From Bacteroidales bacterium (GTDB taxonomy: Bacteria > Bacteroidota > Bacteroidia > Bacteroidales > DTU049), in assembly GCA_018432645.1 (NCBI GenBank), contig JAHDSP010000507.1, positions 1-6,701 on the forward strand: 6,701 nt of DNA, in the 5' to 3' direction. A model generated the notes under the pieces. It ran no database searches, was not told where the DNA came from, and worked only from the letters and a program-made list of their open reading frames with translations. This document shows, piece after piece, positions 23 through 6,701 of this stretch (positions within the stretch are counted from its first letter, which is position 1; each line of letters begins with the position of its first letter). Made by a program: the position numbers and the translations under genes.

Positions 23-858
23 ATGGATTTCACCCTAACAAAATATAAAGAACTCCTTCTGACCATTAAAAGTAAGGGTTATATTTTTGAGCGTTTTGCT
101 GAATACATCGAAAAATCAGCCATTGCATCAACTCCTCAACTTCAAAAATTATTCTTCGCCACGATGTGGATAGAAAGCCTCAAAATGCTCTAAAAATGGC
201 AAAATTAGAACATGATTTAGGTATAAAAACAACTTACTATTTCCGTACTATTCCTCAAACCTTAAAACCTGATATTATTAAAGAAATATCTGATATGGGG
301 CATGAGGTTGGCTACCACTACGAGACGATGGACACCATTAATGAAAAATTTAAAATGAATAATTTAAAATTTAAAAGTGAGGAAGAGAGAATAGACGCGG
401 CATATAATCTATTCTGTGAGAATCTGGAGCAATTTCGCAAAATATATCCCATAAAAACCATTTGTATGCATGGTAGCCCCAGATCGGAATTCGATAACAG
501 GGATATTTGGAAGAAGTATAGCTACAAAGATTTAGGAATAGTAGGCGAGCCCTATTTTGATATTGACTTCGACAAGGTTTTTTACCTCACCGATACCGGC
601 CGCCGCTAGGATGGTTTTAAGTACTCCATTCGTGATAAAGTACCACAGCAAGAACGCTGGATAAAAGAAGGATTAGTTTTTAAAACCACCAACGACATTA
701 TAAAAGCTGCACAAGAAAATAAACTCCCCAATCAGATTATGATTACCGTTCATCCACAGCGCTGGACAAATCATGTAGGAAATTGGATGAAAGAATATTG
801 TTTACAATCCTGTAAAAATGTCGTAAAAAGATTTCTCATCGATTACAGGAAGCAATAA
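23..858 (+). pseudogene. Broken polysaccharide-deacetylase-like gene (frameshift plus amber codon)
   Basis: The pieces read as one protein of the polysaccharide-deacetylase-like (NodB-type fold) group found in Bacteroidota surface-glycan loci. The first piece starts at ATG 23 (MDFTLTKYKELL...) and runs out of frame to a TAA at 191-193. The body continues in another frame with LRHDVDRKP (HDVD at 160-171, the expected metal-site motif), GHEVGYHYE (298-324) and CMHGSP (463-480). It reaches TAG at 607-609, inside a segment I recall as GRRWDG in relatives, so TAG probably replaces TGG (Trp). After it the same frame stays open to TAA at 856-858, through DKVPQQERW and ITVHPQRWTNH, and the C-terminus looks complete. 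Removing one 8-base repeat unit near 127-142 would give 276 codons including the stop, with the amber still present. Two independent lesions make a decayed gene likely. A fragment from 166 (GTG) could still be translated but would lack the first Asp motif. Deacetylase activity is inferred from family only. Confidence 0.85.
127..142 (+). repeat. Two octamer repeat units inside the broken deacetylase gene
   Basis: The units are atcaactc and ctcaactt, identical to units of the intergenic arrays elsewhere in the window. They lie within coding sequence at the point where the reading frame is lost. Upstream codons run in the frame of ATG 23, and the HDVD motif 20 bases downstream is in a different frame. 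Deleting eight bases here joins ...EKSAIASTSK directly to IILRHDVD in frame. Confidence 0.7.
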
Positions 859-879
859 AAATTGTTATCTTGACAACAC

Positions 880-959
880 ATCAACTAATCAACACATCAA
901 CTCCTCAACTCCTCAACTTATCAACTTTTAAACTTTTAAACTCATAAACCCATCAACAA
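880..959 (+). repeat. Octamer array B, 10 units, upstream of the four-helix-bundle gene
   Basis: Ten head-to-tail octamers fill these 80 bases exactly. They include atcaacta, atcaacac, atcaactc, ctcaactc, ctcaactt, atcaactt, ttaaactt, ttaaactc, ataaaccc and atcaacaa. The core is TCAAC or TAAAC at fixed phase, and the units drift toward the 3' end. The array stops one base before the ATG at 961, so it forms the whole leader of that gene, and no Shine-Dalgarno site is present. The + strand has no G from 873 to 960. No promoter is evident in this gap. Confidence 0.9.
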
Positions 960-960
960 T

Positions 961-1323
961 ATGTACCAATATTCCTTTGAAAAATTAGTAGTTTGGCAGA
1001 AGGCTAGAGAATTTGTAGGATTTATTTATAAAGAAACCTCTCTATTTCCAATAGAGGAAAGATATGGATTAACCAACCAAATTAGGCGGGCAGCCATTTC
1101 AGTTGTCGCAAACATCGCTGAAGGAAGTTCTAGAATTTCACGAAAATATCAAGCCTATTTTACTCAAATTGCTTACAGTAGTCTGATAGAGATTTTAAGT
1201 CATTTCTATATTGCATATGATTTAAATTATCTTTCAGAAGAAGTATTAGACGAAATTAAATACAAAGTTAATGACATATCAAATCTACTTAATGCCCTAC
1301 GTAATTCTCAAACCAAACATTAA
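961..1323 (+). CDS. Four-helix-bundle protein (23S rRNA intervening-sequence / IVP family)
   Basis: This 120-residue protein matches the family in length and pattern. The N-terminal FEKLVVWQKAREF (residues 6-18) and the signature NQIRRAAISVVANIAEGSSR (39-58) are both clear. They are followed by a conserved helical stretch with Tyr/Phe (QAYFTQIAYSSLIEI) and a final helix (DEIKYKVNDISNLLNALRNS). The family was first seen encoded in insertions of 23S rRNA. It is a pentameric helical-bundle family related to Avd, the accessory protein of diversity-generating retroelements. Its cellular function in stand-alone form is not established; nucleic-acid binding is a reasonable inference. There is no rRNA, reverse transcriptase or template repeat here. 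The gene is tightly enclosed by octamer arrays, one base before its start and three bases after its stop. It has no evident link to polysaccharide synthesis. Confidence 0.92.
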   Translation: MYQYSFEKLVVWQKAREFVGFIYKETSLFPIEERYGLTNQIRRAAISVVANIAEGSSRISRKYQAYFTQIAYSSLIEILSHFYIAYDLNYLSEEVLDEIKYKVNDISNLLNALRNSQTKH

Positions 1324-1326
1324 TAC

Positions 1327-1398
1327 CTCAACTTCTCAACTTCTCAACTCCTCAACTCCTCAACTCCTCAACTAATCAACTCCTCAACTAATCAACTT
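1327..1398 (+). repeat. Octamer array C, 9 units, between the four-helix-bundle and VanZ-like genes
   Basis: Nine perfect-phase octamers occupy 72 bases: ctcaactt twice, ctcaactc three times, then ctcaacta, atcaactc, ctcaacta and atcaactt. This is the most regular array in the window. It begins three bases after the TAA of the upstream gene and ends ten bases before ATG 1409. The + strand contains no G from 1324 to 1410, so any RNA across the gap would be largely unstructured. Confidence 0.93.
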
Positions 1399-1408
1399 TA
1401 AATTACAA

Positions 1409-1798
1409 ATGGATTCTCATAAAAAAAATGTACTATTTACTCGCATTATTTATATTTTGCTAATATTTATAATTGGTATAATGTCTATTATTCCTAATGA
1501 AGCATTAGACAAACTATCTGATACATATAAATTATTTTCGGGTGGTTATCTATATCATATATTGGCTTATGGATTATTTTGTTTTTTTGCTTTGCTATAC
1601 AACATAACATACCAAAGACATTCTTTACTTATCATACTACTTTTTATCTCTGTTTACAGTATTATTCTTGAAGCAATTCAATATTTTTTACCATATCGTA
1701 CGTTTAATCTTTATGATATCCTTGCAAGTCTTATTGGTATAGCAGTTGGAGCAGTTTTATTCTTTTTATATCGTAGTTTCAAGTTTAGAGTTAAATAA
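1409..1798 (+). CDS. VanZ-like small membrane protein
   Basis: The 129-residue protein has four hydrophobic segments, at about residues 12-28, 48-64, 72-88 and 104-122. It carries the scattered polar signature of VanZ-like proteins: a short SIIPNE loop after helix 1, His50 with Tyr54 (YHILAYGLF) in helix 2, Glu88 and Gln91 (LEAIQYFLPYR) at the end of helix 3, and Asp103 with Gly110 (YDILASLIG) in helix 4. The family is named after teicoplanin-resistance VanZ, but most members, especially short Bacteroidota ones near surface-glycan genes, have no proven role. An envelope or lipid-linked glycan role is inference. ATG 1409 is the first start after the octamer array and puts only a short basic stretch before helix 1. 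No SD site is visible; the leader is A/T-rich. Co-transcription with the preceding gene is possible (85-base gap). Confidence 0.88.
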   Translation: MDSHKKNVLFTRIIYILLIFIIGIMSIIPNEALDKLSDTYKLFSGGYLYHILAYGLFCFFALLYNITYQRHSLLIILLFISVYSIILEAIQYFLPYRTFNLYDILASLIGIAVGAVLFFLYRSFKFRVK

Positions 1799-1876
1799 AA
1801 GTGTGGAAGCGAAAAAGCTTATAAATGAAGAAGTTAATAAGTTTAATAGTGTAGCAAATTGATAGCTATAATTTCA

Positions 1877-1954
1877 TCCACAGATTTACACAAATTAACA
1901 CTGATGATTGAGTTGTATTTGTGCTCATTTGTGTGCATTTGTGGACAATAAATA
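1877..1954 (+). repeat. Imperfect inverted repeat (tccacaga-type hairpin), intact copy
   Basis: The left arm at 1877-1901 (tccacagatttacacaaatt...) pairs with the right arm at 1921-1945 (gtgctcatttgtgtgcattt...), 20 of 25 positions complementary, around a 19-base loop. The right part (1917-1954) recurs at 3784-3821 with one mismatch in 38. From memory, similar 'cacagatt...aatctgtg' dispersed repeats are common between genes in Bacteroidota. The rest of the gap after the VanZ-like gene (1799-1876) shows nothing I can interpret. The element could act as an RNA hairpin or be a mobile remnant; it lacks the T-tract of an intrinsic terminator. Confidence 0.8.
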
Positions 1955-1961
1955 GCATCTT

Positions 1962-2046
1962 ATCAACTAATCAACTTATCACTTATCACTCATCACTCAT
2001 CACCTCTTCTCCCCGTCTCCTCGTCACCCAGTCACCATATCACTCC
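1962..2046 (+). repeat. Octamer array D, about 11 drifting units, upstream of the sugar transferase
   Basis: Two standard octamers (atcaacta, atcaactt) are followed by three 7-base units (atcactt, atcactc, atcactc). Six more 8-base units of a C-rich variant follow: atcacctc, ttctcccc, gtctcctc, gtcaccca, gtcaccat and atcactcc. The only G residues, at 2015, 2023 and 2031, are spaced exactly eight apart, confirming the phase. The array ends 33 bases before the ATG at 2080. It is clearly more C-rich than the surrounding AT-rich DNA. Confidence 0.8.
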
Positions 2047-2079
2047 CACATTAACCATAACAAACAATAAAAGTAAAAA

Positions 2080-3642
2080 ATGAAAATTAAAAAATCATCT
2101 TATTTATTTATCATTTATGATATTATTGTTATCTGCTTATCTTTTCTTTTCTTCATATGGATTAAGCCAGCAAGCAAGTCTTTTTATTTACCACAATATG
2201 CACAACCATTTTCTATTTTTTTTATTATTTGGGTTGGCACATCATATTTTAGTAAAAAATATTTATTAGACTACCATAAAAGGATTTTTCACCTTTTTAT
2301 AGATATCATCAAAAGGAATTTCTTAATTTTTGCTCTTATAGCGATATTTATTTATATCTTTCAAACACCTTATTACTCTAGATTAATTGTCTTTGGCACC
2401 ATTATTACAACTACAATTTTTGAGTTTGGTATTGTTAGTTTTATTAAGTATCATATAAGAGTCTTAGACTCAGATTTAGCAACTATCAAAATAACTACAA
2501 AACCTAAATTAGTAAATATAAATGAGTCTGACGAACAAATAATAAATTATAATATTCCCCTTCCTAAAGCTACTAAAATAGATGATAGTGCTTATCCTAT
2601 ACTTAAAGATAATTATCTTCGTGCACACCCCACTTTATTTGATTTTATTAATGTAAACATTCATTTAAATGATATACCCAAATTAGAAACTTTTGTTCTA
2701 AAAACTCATACGCTATATAATATAGAAAATGTAGAAGCACTATCCAAGCAATTATTTATAAACCTTCATAAAATTAATGATTTCAGACGAATAAATGTAT
2801 ATTTAATTGCAGTAAACAAAATTTTGAAATATGGAGGTTATTTCATTAGCTATGGCTATACTATAGAGGAAAGAAAAAAATATTTTTTAGAAAAATATCC
2901 TCCCGCGATCAATTACATTTTGTACAGCATAGATTTTATTTTTAAAAGGGTAATGCCCAAACTGCCTATTTGTAAAGAATGCTACTTTGCTATAACAAAA
3001 GGTAAAAATCGTGCAATATCAAAAGCCGAGATTTTAGGTAGATTATATTTTTGTGGTTTTAGAGTTATCAATACCACTTTAATAGATAATAGTTTTTATT
3101 TCATAGCACAAAAAATTAATGTACCTAAGCAAGACCCACATCCTACCTATGGTCCATTAATAAAATTAAGAAGAATTGGTAAAGATGGTAACATTATAAA
3201 TGTTTATAAATTCAGGACTATGCATCCATATTCAGAGTATCTACAAAGCTATATTTATGAGCAAAACAAACTACAAGAAAATGGTAAATTTGCTAATGAT
3301 TTTAGAGTAACTACAATTGGAAAATATATGCGTAAATTATGGATAGATGAGCTACCCATGTTTATAAATCTTTTTAAAGGACAACTCAAAATAGTAGGTG
3401 TCAGACCTCTGAGCATTCAATATTTTAAATTATATCCTAAAGAATTTCAAGAAATACGCATTAAATATAAACCAGGATTAATACCTCCTTTTTATGTAGA
3501 TTTACCAAAAAATTTTGATGAAATAGTAGAATCGGAAAAAAAATATTTATTAGCTTATGATGAACACCCTTATCGTACAGATATGAAATATTTTTTTAAA
3601 GCTATTTACAATATATTATTCAAAAAAGCAAGATCTAACTAG
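2080..3642 (+). CDS. Membrane sugar transferase (monotopic phosphoglycosyl transferase-like), three-part
   Basis: This 520-residue protein probably transfers a sugar phosphate from a nucleotide sugar to undecaprenyl phosphate, the first step of capsule or exopolysaccharide repeat-unit synthesis. Residues 8-28, 43-57, 81-94 and 101-122 are hydrophobic helices, as in WbaP-type enzymes. Residues about 215-260 (NLHKINDFRRIN...ILKYGGYF) resemble the C-terminal half of a class I methyltransferase fold, without a visible SAM-binding glycine motif. Residues 357-520 are the bacterial sugar-transferase catalytic domain: LIKLRRIGKDG, KFRTM (377-381), the catalytic-type Asp423-Glu424 in WIDELPMFINLFKG, GVRP (440-443) and KPGLIPPF. 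The hydrophobic re-entrant helix ending in Ser-Pro that normally precedes this domain directly is not there. A 50-residue SKAEILGRLYFCGF-containing insert takes its place. ATG 2080 follows an A-rich leader without an SD site. Family assignment is firm; sugar specificity cannot be told. Confidence 0.88.
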   Translation: MKIKKSSYLFIIYDIIVICLSFLFFIWIKPASKSFYLPQYAQPFSIFFIIWVGTSYFSKKYLLDYHKRIFHLFIDIIKRNFLIFALIAIFIYIFQTPYYSRLIVFGTIITTTIFEFGIVSFIKYHIRVLDSDLATIKITTKPKLVNINESDEQIINYNIPLPKATKIDDSAYPILKDNYLRAHPTLFDFINVNIHLNDIPKLETFVLKTHTLYNIENVEALSKQLFINLHKINDFRRINVYLIAVNKILKYGGYFISYGYTIEERKKYFLEKYPPAINYILYSIDFIFKRVMPKLPICKECYFAITKGKNRAISKAEILGRLYFCGFRVINTTLIDNSFYFIAQKINVPKQDPHPTYGPLIKLRRIGKDGNIINVYKFRTMHPYSEYLQSYIYEQNKLQENGKFANDFRVTTIGKYMRKLWIDELPMFINLFKGQLKIVGVRPLSIQYFKLYPKEFQEIRIKYKPGLIPPFYVDLPKNFDEIVESEKKYLLAYDEHPYRTDMKYFFKAIYNILFKKARSN

Positions 3643-3659
3643 TGTCTTTTAAATTAATC

Positions 3660-3700
3660 TTCACAGATGATTTAGTTTTTTGCGTGCAGTTGTAAATAAA
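3660..3700 (+). repeat. Decayed copy of the tccacaga-type inverted repeat
   Basis: A left-arm remnant (ttcacagat, 3660-3668) and a right-arm remnant (tttgcgtgcagttgtaaa, 3679-3696) are present. The latter matches 1928-1945 at 14 of 18 positions. The copy lies 17 bases after the sugar-transferase stop and, like the copy at 1877, is followed by an octamer array. The order hairpin-then-octamers is therefore repeated in the two gaps. Confidence 0.55.
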
Positions 3701-3709
3701 TTTACAACT
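3688..3709. other. Perfect 9-bp inverted repeat with 4-base loop
   Basis: The arms agttgtaaa and tttacaact flank the loop taaa. The stem is AT-rich and no T-run follows it, so it is a weak candidate for an intrinsic terminator after the sugar-transferase gene. It partly overlaps the decayed hairpin repeat and may be a by-product of it. Confidence 0.45.
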
Positions 3710-3718
3710 AATATCTTG

Positions 3719-3774
3719 ATCAACTCCTCAACTTTTCAACTTATCAACTCTTCAACTAATCAACTCCTAAACCA
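3719..3774 (+). repeat. Octamer array E, 7 units, between sugar transferase and export gene
   Basis: The seven in-phase units are atcaactc, ctcaactt, ttcaactt, atcaactc, ttcaacta, atcaactc and ctaaacca. Orientation and the G-free + strand (3719-3787) are the same as in arrays B and C. Unlike B and C it lies upstream of the promoter candidate at 3872, so it would not be in the leader of the next gene. Confidence 0.9.
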
Positions 3775-3783
3775 TAATCTTAA

Positions 3784-3821
3784 ATTTGTGCTCATTTGTG
3801 TGCATTTGTGGATAATAAATA
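3784..3821 (+). repeat. Extra right half of the tccacaga-type repeat
   Basis: These 38 bases match 1917-1954 with a single mismatch (T at 3813 for C at 1946). No matching left arm lies immediately upstream. It is far better conserved than the neighbouring decayed copy at 3660-3700, which suggests a separate or more recent origin, for example recombination or duplication from the 1877 copy. Confidence 0.85.
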
Positions 3822-3871
3822 ACTAACAACCTAATTCTAAAAAATTTTTTAATTAAACACAAAAAAATTCA

Positions 3872-3879
3872 TACTTTTG
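3872..3879 (+). promoter_or_regulatory. Bacteroidota-type -7 promoter element for the export operon
   Basis: TACTTTTG fits the TAnnTTTG -7 consensus of the Bacteroidota housekeeping sigma factor. The usual TTG of the -33 region is not clear; only a T-run lies there (about 3845-3850). Transcription would start near 3886 and give a short, A-rich, SD-less leader before ATG 3903. It is the best promoter match I found in the window and probably drives the genes at 3903 and 4719 together. Confidence 0.6.
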
Positions 3880-3902: not shown

Positions 3903-4694
3903 ATGGGAAAAAATCATCTATTAAATTTAATAATTTTTATAAGTTTGCTATCAATAATGAGCTCTTGTGCAGCTAAAAAAAATATAATTTATTTTTACAA
4001 TACAGCTTCAGATACTACTATTGCAAAACAAACCACCTATAATCCTATTTTCAAAAAAGATGATTTCATCTCGGTAATAGTTACTTGTGATGATCCTGAG
4101 GCTGCTAAACCATTTAATTTCCCAGAGGAATTTATGGACAAAAACTATTCTAATAGCGGTTACACTACTGGTGTCCCTGCTAAGGCTGGATATTTAATAG
4201 ATCAGGATGGTAATGTTAATTTACCAGTAATAGGCAAAGTGCATTTAGCTGGTATGCGAAGAACAGAAGCTATAACTATGCTAGAAAATAAATATTCAGA
4301 CTATCTGCAGCATCCTATAGTGAATATACATATTGAAAATTTTAAAATAACAGTATTAGGTGAAGTAAATCGTCCAGGTACATTCAAAATTCCTAATGAG
4401 CGGATAACAATATTAGAAGCTATTGGATTAGCTGGAGACTTGAAAATAGCTGGTGAGAGAAGAAATGTATTAGTTATCAGAGATAATGATGGTATAAAAA
4501 CAGAATATCGAGTAGATCTCACTTCTACAGATATTTTATATTCGCCCGTATATTACCTCGAACAAAATGATGTGGTTTATGTAGAACCTAACTCTACGGC
4601 TCGCAGGCAAGCTACCGTTTGGAGAACAGAAGGCTCACTATTTATTTCTCTCACTTCTCTGATTGTAACTACCTTGTCAATAATTTTTAGATAA
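3903..4694 (+). CDS. Wza-like polysaccharide export lipoprotein (outer-membrane auxiliary protein)
   Basis: The 263-residue protein forms, by family, the outer-membrane channel for capsule or exopolysaccharide. A lipoprotein signal peptide (residues 1-21, hydrophobic core LLNLIIFISLLSIM) ends at lipobox Cys22 (MSSC). The polysaccharide-export domain spans about 46-125 and contains FKKDDFISVIV and YLIDQDGNVNLPVIGKV (97-113). An SLBB domain follows, with FKITVLGEVNRPGTFKI from 147 and LEQNDVVYVEP near 220-230. The C-terminus is a hydrophobic helix (about 246-262, LFISLTSLIVTTLSIIF), matching the transmembrane segment that in Wza-type proteins crosses the outer membrane. The length is typical of Bacteroidota members and shorter than E. 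coli Wza, which has more periplasmic domains. ATG 3903 lies 17 bases after the predicted transcription start. The kinase gene follows 24 bases downstream, and the two products are expected to dock in the periplasm. Confidence 0.93.
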   Translation: MGKNHLLNLIIFISLLSIMSSCAAKKNIIYFYNTASDTTIAKQTTYNPIFKKDDFISVIVTCDDPEAAKPFNFPEEFMDKNYSNSGYTTGVPAKAGYLIDQDGNVNLPVIGKVHLAGMRRTEAITMLENKYSDYLQHPIVNIHIENFKITVLGEVNRPGTFKIPNERITILEAIGLAGDLKIAGERRNVLVIRDNDGIKTEYRVDLTSTDILYSPVYYLEQNDVVYVEPNSTARRQATVWRTEGSLFISLTSLIVTTLSIIFR

Positions 4695-4718: not shown

Positions 4719-6701
4719 ATGGATAATAGTAATTTTAGTGAAAACAATACTTATACAAATAAAGAAGACACTATAAATATAAGAGAAATTTTTGAAAAAT
4801 ATTTCAGACATTGGAAATTTATTGTTTTATGCATAGCAATAGCATTAATAATAGGTTTTTTGTATCTGCAGTCGAGAATACCTATTTATGAATCATCGGC
4901 AATGGTTATAGTGAGTGATGAGAAATCAGGTAATCTGTCTGATGAATTAAGTGTTTTTAGTGATTTAGGCATCATAACACAAAAAGGAAATCTATATAAT
5001 GAAATAGAAATCTTTAAATCTAGAAAATTATTATCTCAAGTAGTACAAGACCTGCAGCTAAATATTTCAATTGTAAAAGAAGGGAATTTCTTAACTCCCG
5101 ATAAATATTATTATAACGATTCACCTATTAATATAAAATTAAGCACACCAATAGAAAACATAGTTCATCATACTACATTAGAATTAACTATTATAGATAA
5201 TGATAATTTTAAAATTACTGAAAATTATACCAATACGAATGGCAAGGATATTTCAGAAAATAAAGGAAAACATAAATTCGGAGATTCTATAAATACATCA
5301 CTAGGTTTTATAACTATAGACAAAACTAACAACCTACAAGATAAAAATAAGGGCGATGATTTTATAATTAATATAAGTAGTTTAGAGAGTGCTGTTAATA
5401 AATATAAAGCTAATTTAACTATTCAAACTGTTAATAGAGATGCTTCTGCTATAGAAATTAAAATAAATGGTCCAAACAGAGCATTAAATAACGATTTTAT
5501 AAACACGTTAATTTCTCAACATCAAGCTCAAGCTATTAATGATAAAAATATCATAGCATTAAATACTAGTAAATTCATAGATGAGAGGATGAAAGTCATA
5601 GAAAAAGAATTATCTGATATAGAAAATCTATTGCAAGCTTTTATGACTCAAGAGAAATACGTTGATCTAAATATTAGTGTACAAAATATTCTAGAAAAAG
5701 AATCTGCTGTAGAAAAAGATTTAATAAATGCATACATACAATTGAAACTAGCTGAGCAAATAAAAGATTATTTACAGAAACACAAAGATCTCAGTAGCCT
5801 ATTACCTGCTAATTTAGGAGTAGAGAGTGAGGCTATTAACAAAATGACAAATGATTATAATCAATTAGTATTACAAAGGAATAATTTATTACTAAACTCT
5901 TCTGCTGAAAATCCCCTAATAACAAAAATAGATAATCAACTTTTAGCATTAAGGGCTAGTCTCAATGAAAGTCTTAATAATTTAATTACTAGCCTAAAGA
6001 TACAAACACAATCTCTAAAAACAAATATTGATAATTATTCGAGCAATCTAGCTAGTGTGCCCGAAAGTGAGAGAAGATATAAAGATATCCTCAGACAACA
6101 ACAAATAAAAGAAAATCTTTATATTTATCTAATGCAAAAACGAGAAGAAGCAGAAATAGCTATGGCTGCTACAGTAAGCAATATCAAGCTTGTAGATTCT
6201 GCATATAGTACTATAAAACCTATTAAGCCAAAAAAAGCTGCTAGTATGCTTGTAGCTCTGCTTATTGGATTATTCCTCCCAATTTTATTAATCTATTTTA
6301 GAGATTTATTTGATAATAAAGTTCATACCACAGAGGATTTAGGATTTTTAAATATTCCTATAGTCTCTAGCATACCTTTTAAAAAATCTGATGACATTAT
6401 AATTATTAAAGAAAATATAAAAGGCCATTTAGCAGAAGCTTTTCGTACTTTGCGATCTAATTTGGAATTTATTTTTACTGATAAAAAAGAAAAAGGAAAT
6501 ACTATCTTTGTTACCTCTACTATCCCTGGTGAAGGAAAAACTTTTGTTTCGTTAAACCTTGCTGTATCATACACTCTAATAAATGCTAAAGTTTTATTTT
6601 TAGAATTAGACCTTCGTGCACCTAGAATAGCTCATTATCTGAAAATACCAGATAACAAGGGTATCAGTGATTATCTCAAAGACGATAATACAACTCTCAA
6701 T
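4719..6701 (+). CDS. Wzc-like polysaccharide co-polymerase / tyrosine autokinase (3' end outside window)
   Basis: The frame is open from ATG 4719 for 661 codons to the window edge. By family it is an inner-membrane protein that controls polymer length and export through cycles of tyrosine autophosphorylation. Visible parts: a Wzz-type N-terminal segment with helix 1 (residues 32-50), and a long periplasmic domain with coiled-coil-like stretches (about 280-440). The GNVR-type region near 448-480 (PESERRYKDILRQQQ, YLMQKREEAEIA) comes next, then a proline/lysine-rich IKPIKPKK, helix 2 (508-528) and the cytoplasmic kinase. Walker A is IPGEGKT with Lys607. Walker A' is LELDLRAPR at 628-636, where the first Asp of the usual DxDxR is Glu629, while Asp631 and Arg633 are kept. 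Walker B and the C-terminal tyrosine cluster lie beyond the window. It is the second gene of the export operon, with no SD site at normal spacing. Confidence 0.94.
   Translation, partial: MDNSNFSENNTYTNKEDTINIREIFEKYFRHWKFIVLCIAIALIIGFLYLQSRIPIYESSAMVIVSDEKSGNLSDELSVFSDLGIITQKGNLYNEIEIFKSRKLLSQVVQDLQLNISIVKEGNFLTPDKYYYNDSPINIKLSTPIENIVHHTTLELTIIDNDNFKITENYTNTNGKDISENKGKHKFGDSINTSLGFITIDKTNNLQDKNKGDDFIINISSLESAVNKYKANLTIQTVNRDASAIEIKINGPNRALNNDFINTLISQHQAQAINDKNIIALNTSKFIDERMKVIEKELSDIENLLQAFMTQEKYVDLNISVQNILEKESAVEKDLINAYIQLKLAEQIKDYLQKHKDLSSLLPANLGVESEAINKMTNDYNQLVLQRNNLLLNSSAENPLITKIDNQLLALRASLNESLNNLITSLKIQTQSLKTNIDNYSSNLASVPESERRYKDILRQQQIKENLYIYLMQKREEAEIAMAATVSNIKLVDSAYSTIKPIKPKKAASMLVALLIGLFLPILLIYFRDLFDNKVHTTEDLGFLNIPIVSSIPFKKSDDIIIIKENIKGHLAEAFRTLRSNLEFIFTDKKEKGNTIFVTSTIPGEGKTFVSLNLAVSYTLINAKVLFLELDLRAPRIAHYLKIPDNKGISDYLKDDNTTLN

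Follow-up and report, generated by a model that had tools for sequence, protein, structure and literature searches.

How did tandem arrays of a single octamer, TCAACTNN (period 8), come to occupy the gaps between the genes on one contig of a Bacteroidales bacterium? The window analysed was this whole contig (C34, 6701 bp), which belongs to a 2.46 Mb assembly in 572 contigs with 7% contamination. The genome of the window is denoted G000 and five other members of its genus G001–G005. Short tandem arrays are known from intergenic DNA of several bacterial groups. This genus allows insertion, slippage and copying to be told apart as routes of their spread, because a given gap can be long in one species and short in a close one, a mobilizing candidate has definable ends and one gap has been rewritten mainly in its tract.

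We conclude, with a probability of about 0.57, that the arrays are variable modules of patchwork intergenic repeats restricted to the genus, some of which resemble miniature inverted-repeat transposable elements (MITEs) and were likely moved by an ISL3 transposase, and that slippage and the copying of sequence from one site to another probably change the arrays. As an overall kind, miniature transposons with hypervariable microrepeat interiors, similar to the BrickBuilt elements discussed below, are the best reading. Some copies would be complete elements of this type, having inverted ends and 8 bp target duplications and likely mobilized by an ISL3-type transposase of which relics are now left. 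The arrays would lengthen, shorten and diverge through slippage, and through conversion or template switching that copies sequence among dispersed sites. Arrays 3 and 4 of the window would lie in remnants of elements that lack ends, and arrays 1 and 2 would stand bare around a gene for a 23S rRNA intervening-sequence protein (IVP; Table 1). The claim is limited: the octamers are a recurrent module that some complete-looking elements carry, and it does not extend to every array having arrived by transposition.

Octamer arrays and the surrounding composite repeat

The window contains 18 copies of the string TCAACTNNTCAACT, all of them on the + strand; 200 dinucleotide shuffles gave none. All four gaps of at least 85 nt contain an array and a fifth gap, of 24 nt, has none. 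A previous sequence-only reading had described arrays of one orientation in every larger gap, and both observations were confirmed. It had also described the arrays as nearly free of G, in exact 8-base phase and constant in their core, which held in part. No G is present at 873–960, 1324–1410 and 3719–3787, the regions of arrays 1, 2 and 4, and all ten units of array 1 are in phase, with exact TCAACT kept in five. Array 3 (1962–2046) contains three G and two exact octamers, followed by 7-base and irregular units. The self-identity of its first 40 nt is 0.67 at period 7 versus 0.38 at period 8 (over the whole 85 nt period 8 is slightly higher, 0.53 versus 0.45) and its later units depart from the TCAACT core; it is therefore not the run of about 11 like octamers that had been proposed. 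The list of arrays was also incomplete, a two-unit copy at 128–141 in a broken gene having been overlooked.

At many sites the arrays have recurrent flanks: a left stretch that ends in TTACAACTAATATCTTGCTAAACT and, on the right, 10-base units (ATTTGTGCTCATTTGTGTGCATTTGTGG) that pair with CCACAGATTTACACAAATTAACAC as a hairpin with 10-base arms. The RNA fold of this hairpin in the window (1870–1950) has z scores of −3.1 on the + strand and −4.1 on the − strand. Heptamers such as CATCACTTATCACT and CTCCCAGTCTCCCAGT are further modules of the composite, and several unit lengths (7, 8 and 10) are mixed in this repeat family. The left junction is anchored: its motif has 13 matches in the loci examined, ten of which enter arrays of at least three units and one a two-unit array, and in the mirrored position, used as a control, it has no match in these loci. 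Modules were tabulated at 50 sites with at least three exact units each (30, 14 and 6 from three species). Some of these sites are orthologues of each other, and the G005 site on contig C323, one of seven in that genome, was left out. The hairpin module is present at 31 of the 50 sites and at least one element end, at a looser cutoff, at 20. Composites 1 and 2 of the window, around arrays 3 and 4, are interior fragments of elements, and the element ends are absent from them. Other recurrent modules were seen in the gaps L051, L056, L057 and L042, namely GGGCTAAAGCCC and CGACCTAAAGGTCG palindromes and a AATCCTTTAATCCCAAAAATC stretch; some of these modules also lie inside paired-end elements (L051 and L046).

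The arrays are not confined to the window. The pattern of three in-phase octamer units has 72 overlapping matches in G000 (30 sites after merging), 20 in G002 and 11 in G005, i.e. it is present in three of 148 related genomes, all of the same genus. No exact three-unit array was found in G001, G003 and G004 or in the 142 genomes outside the genus, and among the relatives searched the arrays are restricted to the genus. The reversed-pattern control of this search was uninformative because TCAACT reads identically backwards. Matches to the window DNA, with gene matches counted in, numbered 69 in G002, 86 in G005, 12 in G001, 5 in G003 and 6 in G004. An assembly artefact, which could be suspected from a short contig of a 572-contig assembly and had been named as a concern by the sequence-only reading, is hardly credible: the same gap, next to metK, is filled by arrays in G000, G002 and G005, which were assembled separately.

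TCAACT octamer arrays also recur in distant groups among the matches listed, with at least 119 stretches at no fewer than 80 loci (Bacteroidales, Verrucomicrobia, KSB1, WOR-3, Streptomyces and others); we make no claim about a wider distribution. These counts take coding and noncoding positions together, and some of the listed arrays lie within long open frames. Several of the listed TCAACT arrays are from rumen Bacteroidales, with TCAACTCG and TCAACTTG units.

Elements with inverted ends and their resemblance to ISL3

Element ends were recognized in one gap aligned across four species, in which the entire G000 composite is an insert ending in GGTTCTATAAC...GTTATAGAACC. The counts of ends and duplications given here cover the loci examined and not whole genomes. 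Pairing of exact GGTTCTATAAC...GTTATAGAACC ends gave 20 distinct elements of 106–671 bp, which thus have the terminal inverted repeats of a MITE. They are also of MITE size (50–1000 bp), multicopy, AT-rich and free of a transposase gene, the last two properties being judged by eye. The flanking 8-mers are identical in four of the 20 and agree at seven or more of the eight positions in eight, compared with 3 and 14 of 380 mismatched-pair controls, respectively. When duplication lengths of 5–11 were tested, a length of 8 gave the most identical flanks (4 of 20; others 0–2). When 98 genomes were searched for an exact 217–244 bp end pattern, it occurred in four, each a member of the genus (10, 6, 4 and 1 copies); it was found in none of the 92 genomes outside the genus, and a backwards control gave no match in the 98. 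Octamer pairs are carried by L051 (466 bp) and L233 (396 bp), both with inexact ends and duplications matching at 8 of 8 positions, and by L046 (488 bp), with exact ends and a duplication matching at 7 of 8.

The ends point to ISL3 as the probable source of mobilization. Fragments of ISL3 transposase gave four matches on three contigs, all in G000, when the six genus genomes were searched. Element end B agrees with one end of the ISL3 relic on contig C427 at 24 of 26 positions, and the end of the 671 bp element L226 agrees with the other relic end, also at 24 of 26. For an ISL3-like transposon with 25 bp inverted repeats, AT-rich 8 bp target duplications are described in the available part of the report (PMC5559704). 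The miniature elements combine ends of ISL3 type, with a weaker resemblance for end A, and 8 bp duplications, as would be expected if they had been mobilized by ISL3. The relics themselves (L258–L261, on contigs C427, C310 and C352 of G000) have ends resembling those of the miniature elements. Two of these contigs stop within the insertion sequence, suggesting that copies of it were collapsed.

Gap and tract change between species

Some gaps are long in one species and short in another. At L046 the spacing between open reading frames (ORFs) is 523 nt in G000, 293 nt in G005 (with an insert of its own) and 29 nt in G001 and G002. The L053 gap measures 337 nt in G000, 265 nt in G002, 108 nt in G005, 94 nt in G001 and 103 nt in G003. 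At L057 (318 nt in G000 versus 177 nt in G005) G005 has one CACAAAT module and G000 has two, which flank the array.

Substitutions and gap columns inside and outside the tract were compared in seven pairs. Substitutions amounted to 5.6% in the tract versus 1.1% outside for C212/G002 (gap columns 24 versus 0.9%), 31 versus 6.7% for metK in G000/G002 (18 versus 2.8%), 28 versus 4.3% for metK in G002/G005 (37 versus 2.8%), 6.7 versus 5.6% for L036/G002 (49 versus 2.5%), 20 versus 4.9% for L049/G002 (41 versus 35%) and 17 versus 13% for L047/G002 (79 versus 35%). For L057/G005 the tract is missing in one species, with 8.2% substitutions and 20% gap columns outside. The tracts have thus changed faster than their surroundings. 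In the C212 pair long identical stretches outside enclose a rewritten tract, and the G000 tract at this site is a mosaic: 54 of its nucleotides recur exactly at site L040 and 82 at L054, the two stretches having an overlap of 8 nt. The identity of spacers is 0.39 for adjacent and 0.26 for nonadjacent ones, with 0.20 expected by chance. Slippage within tracts, and conversion or template switching between them, are the processes that would probably have produced these patterns.

Several observations weigh against this interpretation. Two of the 20 exact-ended elements are the same site in two species, 12 have no convincing duplication and only one (L046) carries an octamer pair; the fifteen elements of 219–242 bp carry none. 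Looser end pairing gave exact 8 bp duplications in seven of 33 pairs, a count that is uncontrolled and includes nested pairs. Of the 50 array sites, 17 have an inward-facing element end within 700 nt, compared with 12 of 40 other gaps of at least 250 nt (and 14 of 103 gaps of at least 100 nt); ends are about as common near arrays as in other long gaps, and the arrays are therefore not clearly tied to the transposon. Neither ends nor the hairpin module are present at 15 of the 50 sites, including arrays 1 and 2 of the window. The two remaining left-junction matches are one site in two species and enter decayed 8-base units. The six genus genomes searched, some of which are only 63–83% complete, yielded no intact ISL3 transposase. 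Consensus end A agrees equally with both relic ends (21 of 26 each), ends A and B agree with each other at 22 of 26 positions and the relic ends at 20 of 26, so that only the match of end B is specific. At the insertion point the alignment of short with long gaps is not base-exact, the regions outside the tract are rich in gap columns in the L047 and L049 (about 35%) and L057 (20%) alignments, and the exact sharing among L042, L040 and L054 gives no direction of copying. The genome is fragmented and 7% contaminated, so that C34 and its homologous contig C36 may be two strains.

Some of these points would suit ordinary microsatellites formed by polymerase slippage in free gaps, with an incidental association with the composite: the 15 sites without any composite, the single octamer carrier among the 20 exact-ended elements and the unremarkable frequency of ends near arrays. 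Adjacent units are more alike, octamer arrays are present in unrelated phyla among the matches listed, and a slippage hypothesis is reported for heptamers in the available part of PMC4692102. We nevertheless regard this explanation as doubtful, because the nonrepetitive left junction common to the sites (11 matches leading to octamers and two to decayed units), the octamers within two elements with exact 8 bp duplications and the exact sharing of 54 and 82 nt between unlinked sites require copying or insertion, for which slippage alone is insufficient. A tentative alternative is that the microrepeat tracts themselves spread independently of any transposon, by template switching at 7- and 8-base units, overwriting other tracts and shuffling genes such as the sugar transferase gene of the window. 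Dispersal from one source followed by ongoing slippage, one of two origins offered by the sequence-only reading, is supported by the genus-restricted burst, the common left junction, the octamers in a few paired-end elements, the exact sharing and the likeness of spacers.

Orientation, gene context and related repeats

The other origin offered was selection on the octamer, as a protein-binding site or an unstructured leader RNA acting on the neighbouring genes. The window arrays all lie on the transcribed strand, as the sequence-only reading had noted; this is uninformative because all identified window genes are on the + strand. RNA folding of arrays 1, 2 and 4 gave no structure, the sites include the metK, rplM and rpsL gaps (gene names assigned by eye), and a translational role has been proposed for TAACTGA repeats, according to the accessible part of PMC4679880. 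Against selection stands the orientation at the 50 sites, where ORFs of at least 90 amino acids were called mechanically. A downstream ORF was called at 48 sites, and the array runs along it at 24 and against it at 24; this random orientation is an outcome that the sequence-only reading had itself named as speaking against its view. Upstream ORFs run along the array in 28 cases and against it in 15. At the 41 sites with both flanks called, both ORFs run along the array at 16 and against it at ten, converge at ten and diverge at five. One gene-edge comparison used nine of 18 prepared sites.

A TAnnTTTG motif, which we take to be a promoter type of the Bacteroidota, lies between array and ORF at 11 of the 24 co-directional sites (the chance level of the motif is uncontrolled) and is 24–40 nt before the start at ten of these 11; the array would then be outside the leader. 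The same applies to array 4 of the window: the promoter-like TACTTTTG at 3872, a candidate promoter, is 3' of the array, which would thus lie outside the leader of the export gene. The ten sites between converging ORFs, the faster change of the tracts and the three genus members without an exact three-unit array also speak against selection, which we consider improbable. A regulatory function of the octamer arrays is unsupported, and they probably have no selected function. Before gaps with such tracts are read as conserved regulatory arrays, orientation and divergence need to be tested.

Arrays lie on both sides of the IVP gene on C34 and on C36, and on C36 the full IVP gene (L039) is preceded by an array and a second copy of its own 3' end, as if the arrays were the ends of a mobile cassette with this gene. 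Such a cassette is very improbable. An IVP gene lies within 400 nt of only four of 123 arrays, all on these two homologous contigs, and the IVP family is present in 110 of the 148 relatives versus three with arrays, which largely refutes a tie between the two. The duplicated IVP end and array on C36 are as would be expected from recombination between arrays. An intervening-sequence element of 23S rRNA, which would lie within a 23S rRNA gene, was also considered and rejected: the IVP gene adjoins the VanZ-like gene, and no Rfam family of any kind matched in the window at the gathering threshold.

The genus Porphyromonas belongs to the Bacteroidales. In P. gingivalis the BrickBuilt MITE has a minisatellite inside a MITE (PMC4596501), and judging from the available part of that report it appears to be the closest system in build and taxonomy. 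Both are dispersed between genes, enclose tandem units arranged head to tail in variable number between inverted ends, include many partial copies and have ends resembling insertion sequences of the same genome; the filled and empty sites of BrickBuilt between strains may have a counterpart in the long and short gaps described above. The two are not identical: the BrickBuilt unit is 23 nt versus 8 nt here, its ends are of the IS5-type GAGNCC... with variable duplications versus GGTTCTATAAC ends with 8 bp duplications, and all of its leader-to-tail copies have the repeat, whereas most exact-ended elements here are without it.

In dispersal and variability the TAACTGA repeats and G-rich heptamers are closest, as far as the available text of the two reports goes. 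TAACTGA heptamer arrays are dispersed in intergenic DNA of Beggiatoaceae, Cyanobacteria and some Bacteroidetes, and their spreading mechanism in Beggiatoaceae is described as not evident (PMC4679880). They share with the present arrays short direct repeats at dispersed intergenic sites, a patchy distribution, an admixture of other heptamers, indels between strains (in 7 nt steps) and a suggested role in rearrangement. The unit TCAACTNN and its period of 8 exclude identity; in addition, most TAACTGA repeats in one genome are directed at a nearby start codon, in contrast to the random orientation of the present arrays, and transposon ends are not among the features described in the available part of the report. 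The heptamer repeats of Xanthomonas and Nostoc (PMC4692102) are likewise intergenic tandem microrepeats with large changes of length and sequence between close relatives; they are G-rich, whereas the octamers here are mostly G-free and many lie inside a composite. A multicopy octanucleotide class of Geobacter metallireducens, TWGTTGAY, has the reverse complement RTCAACWA, which fits the octamer at the consensus level only (PMC2700814, available part). The 14-letter octamer strings were contained in no paper among the literature texts searched. The earlier statement that no named element has this description was thus right for the octamer itself and wrong for its kind, since BrickBuilt elements and heptamer arrays are known. 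Intergenic tandem microrepeats varying between close relatives, among them short tandemly repeated repetitive (STRR) sequences and small dispersed repeats of cyanobacteria, were reportedly described by Elhai in 2008.

Table 1. Features of the window, in order of position.
Feature	Position	Strand	Remarks
Broken polysaccharide-deacetylase-like gene	23–859	+	Frameshift and internal stop; homologous C36 copy open over 275 amino acids
Two-unit octamer copy within the broken deacetylase-like gene	128–141	+	Three units in the C36 homologue
Octamer array 1	881–960	+	Ten units in phase, five exact; G-free; bare, without surrounding composite
Four-helix-bundle/23S rRNA intervening-sequence protein (IVP) gene	961–1323	+	Between arrays 1 and 2; PF05635, E = 6e-34; TIGR02436
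Octamer array 2	1328–1399	+	Nine exact units; G-free; bare
VanZ-like gene	1409–1798	+	PF04892
Composite repeat 1	1862–1988	+	Fragment, 77% identical to the interior of miniature element L233; without ends
Hairpin of 10-base CACAAAT-type units (CCACAGATTTACACAAATTAACAC ... GTGTGCATTTGTGG)	1873–1945	+	RNA fold of 1870–1950
Array 3	1963–2046	+	7-base and irregular units after two exact octamers
Bacterial sugar transferase gene	2080–3642	+	PF02397; composite on each side
Composite repeat 2	3651–3822	+	77% identical over 173 nt to the interior of the 488 bp element L046; without ends
Octamer array 4	3720–3767	+	Six exact units; G-free
Right 10-base module	3784–3821	+	97% identical to 1917–1954
Promoter-like TACTTTTG	3872–3879	+	TAnnTTTG type; between array 4 and export gene, 31 nt before the gene
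Polysaccharide export (SLBB) gene	3903–4694	+	PF02563, PF22461
Chain-length/tyrosine-kinase gene (Wzz-GNVR)	4719–6701	+	Continues past the contig end

Contigs C34 and C36, which may be duplicates or two strains, are 87–95% identical in their longer matches, and their array units differ. On C36 (L039) the three octamer units at 4144–4165 are in frame inside the deacetylase-like gene; the copy on C34 is frameshifted and otherwise damaged too. Since changes by 8-base units shift the frame, phase variation of this gene is conceivable. The match of the C36 copy to Polysacc_deac_1 (Pfam) is weak and below the cutoff.

The order of genes differs in G004, where the VanZ gene is followed by a short IVP remnant with a CTCCCAGT-type array, the export gene, the Wzz gene and, further downstream, the sugar transferase gene. 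No composite was seen on either side of this G004 sugar transferase gene (C18, L220) in the flanking stretches inspected. In the window the sugar transferase gene lies between the VanZ-like and export genes, with a composite on either side. Two remnants thus bracket a gene that is placed elsewhere in a relative, which suggests that the repeats are probably also recombination sites; they mark a spot at which genes of a polysaccharide locus have changed order.

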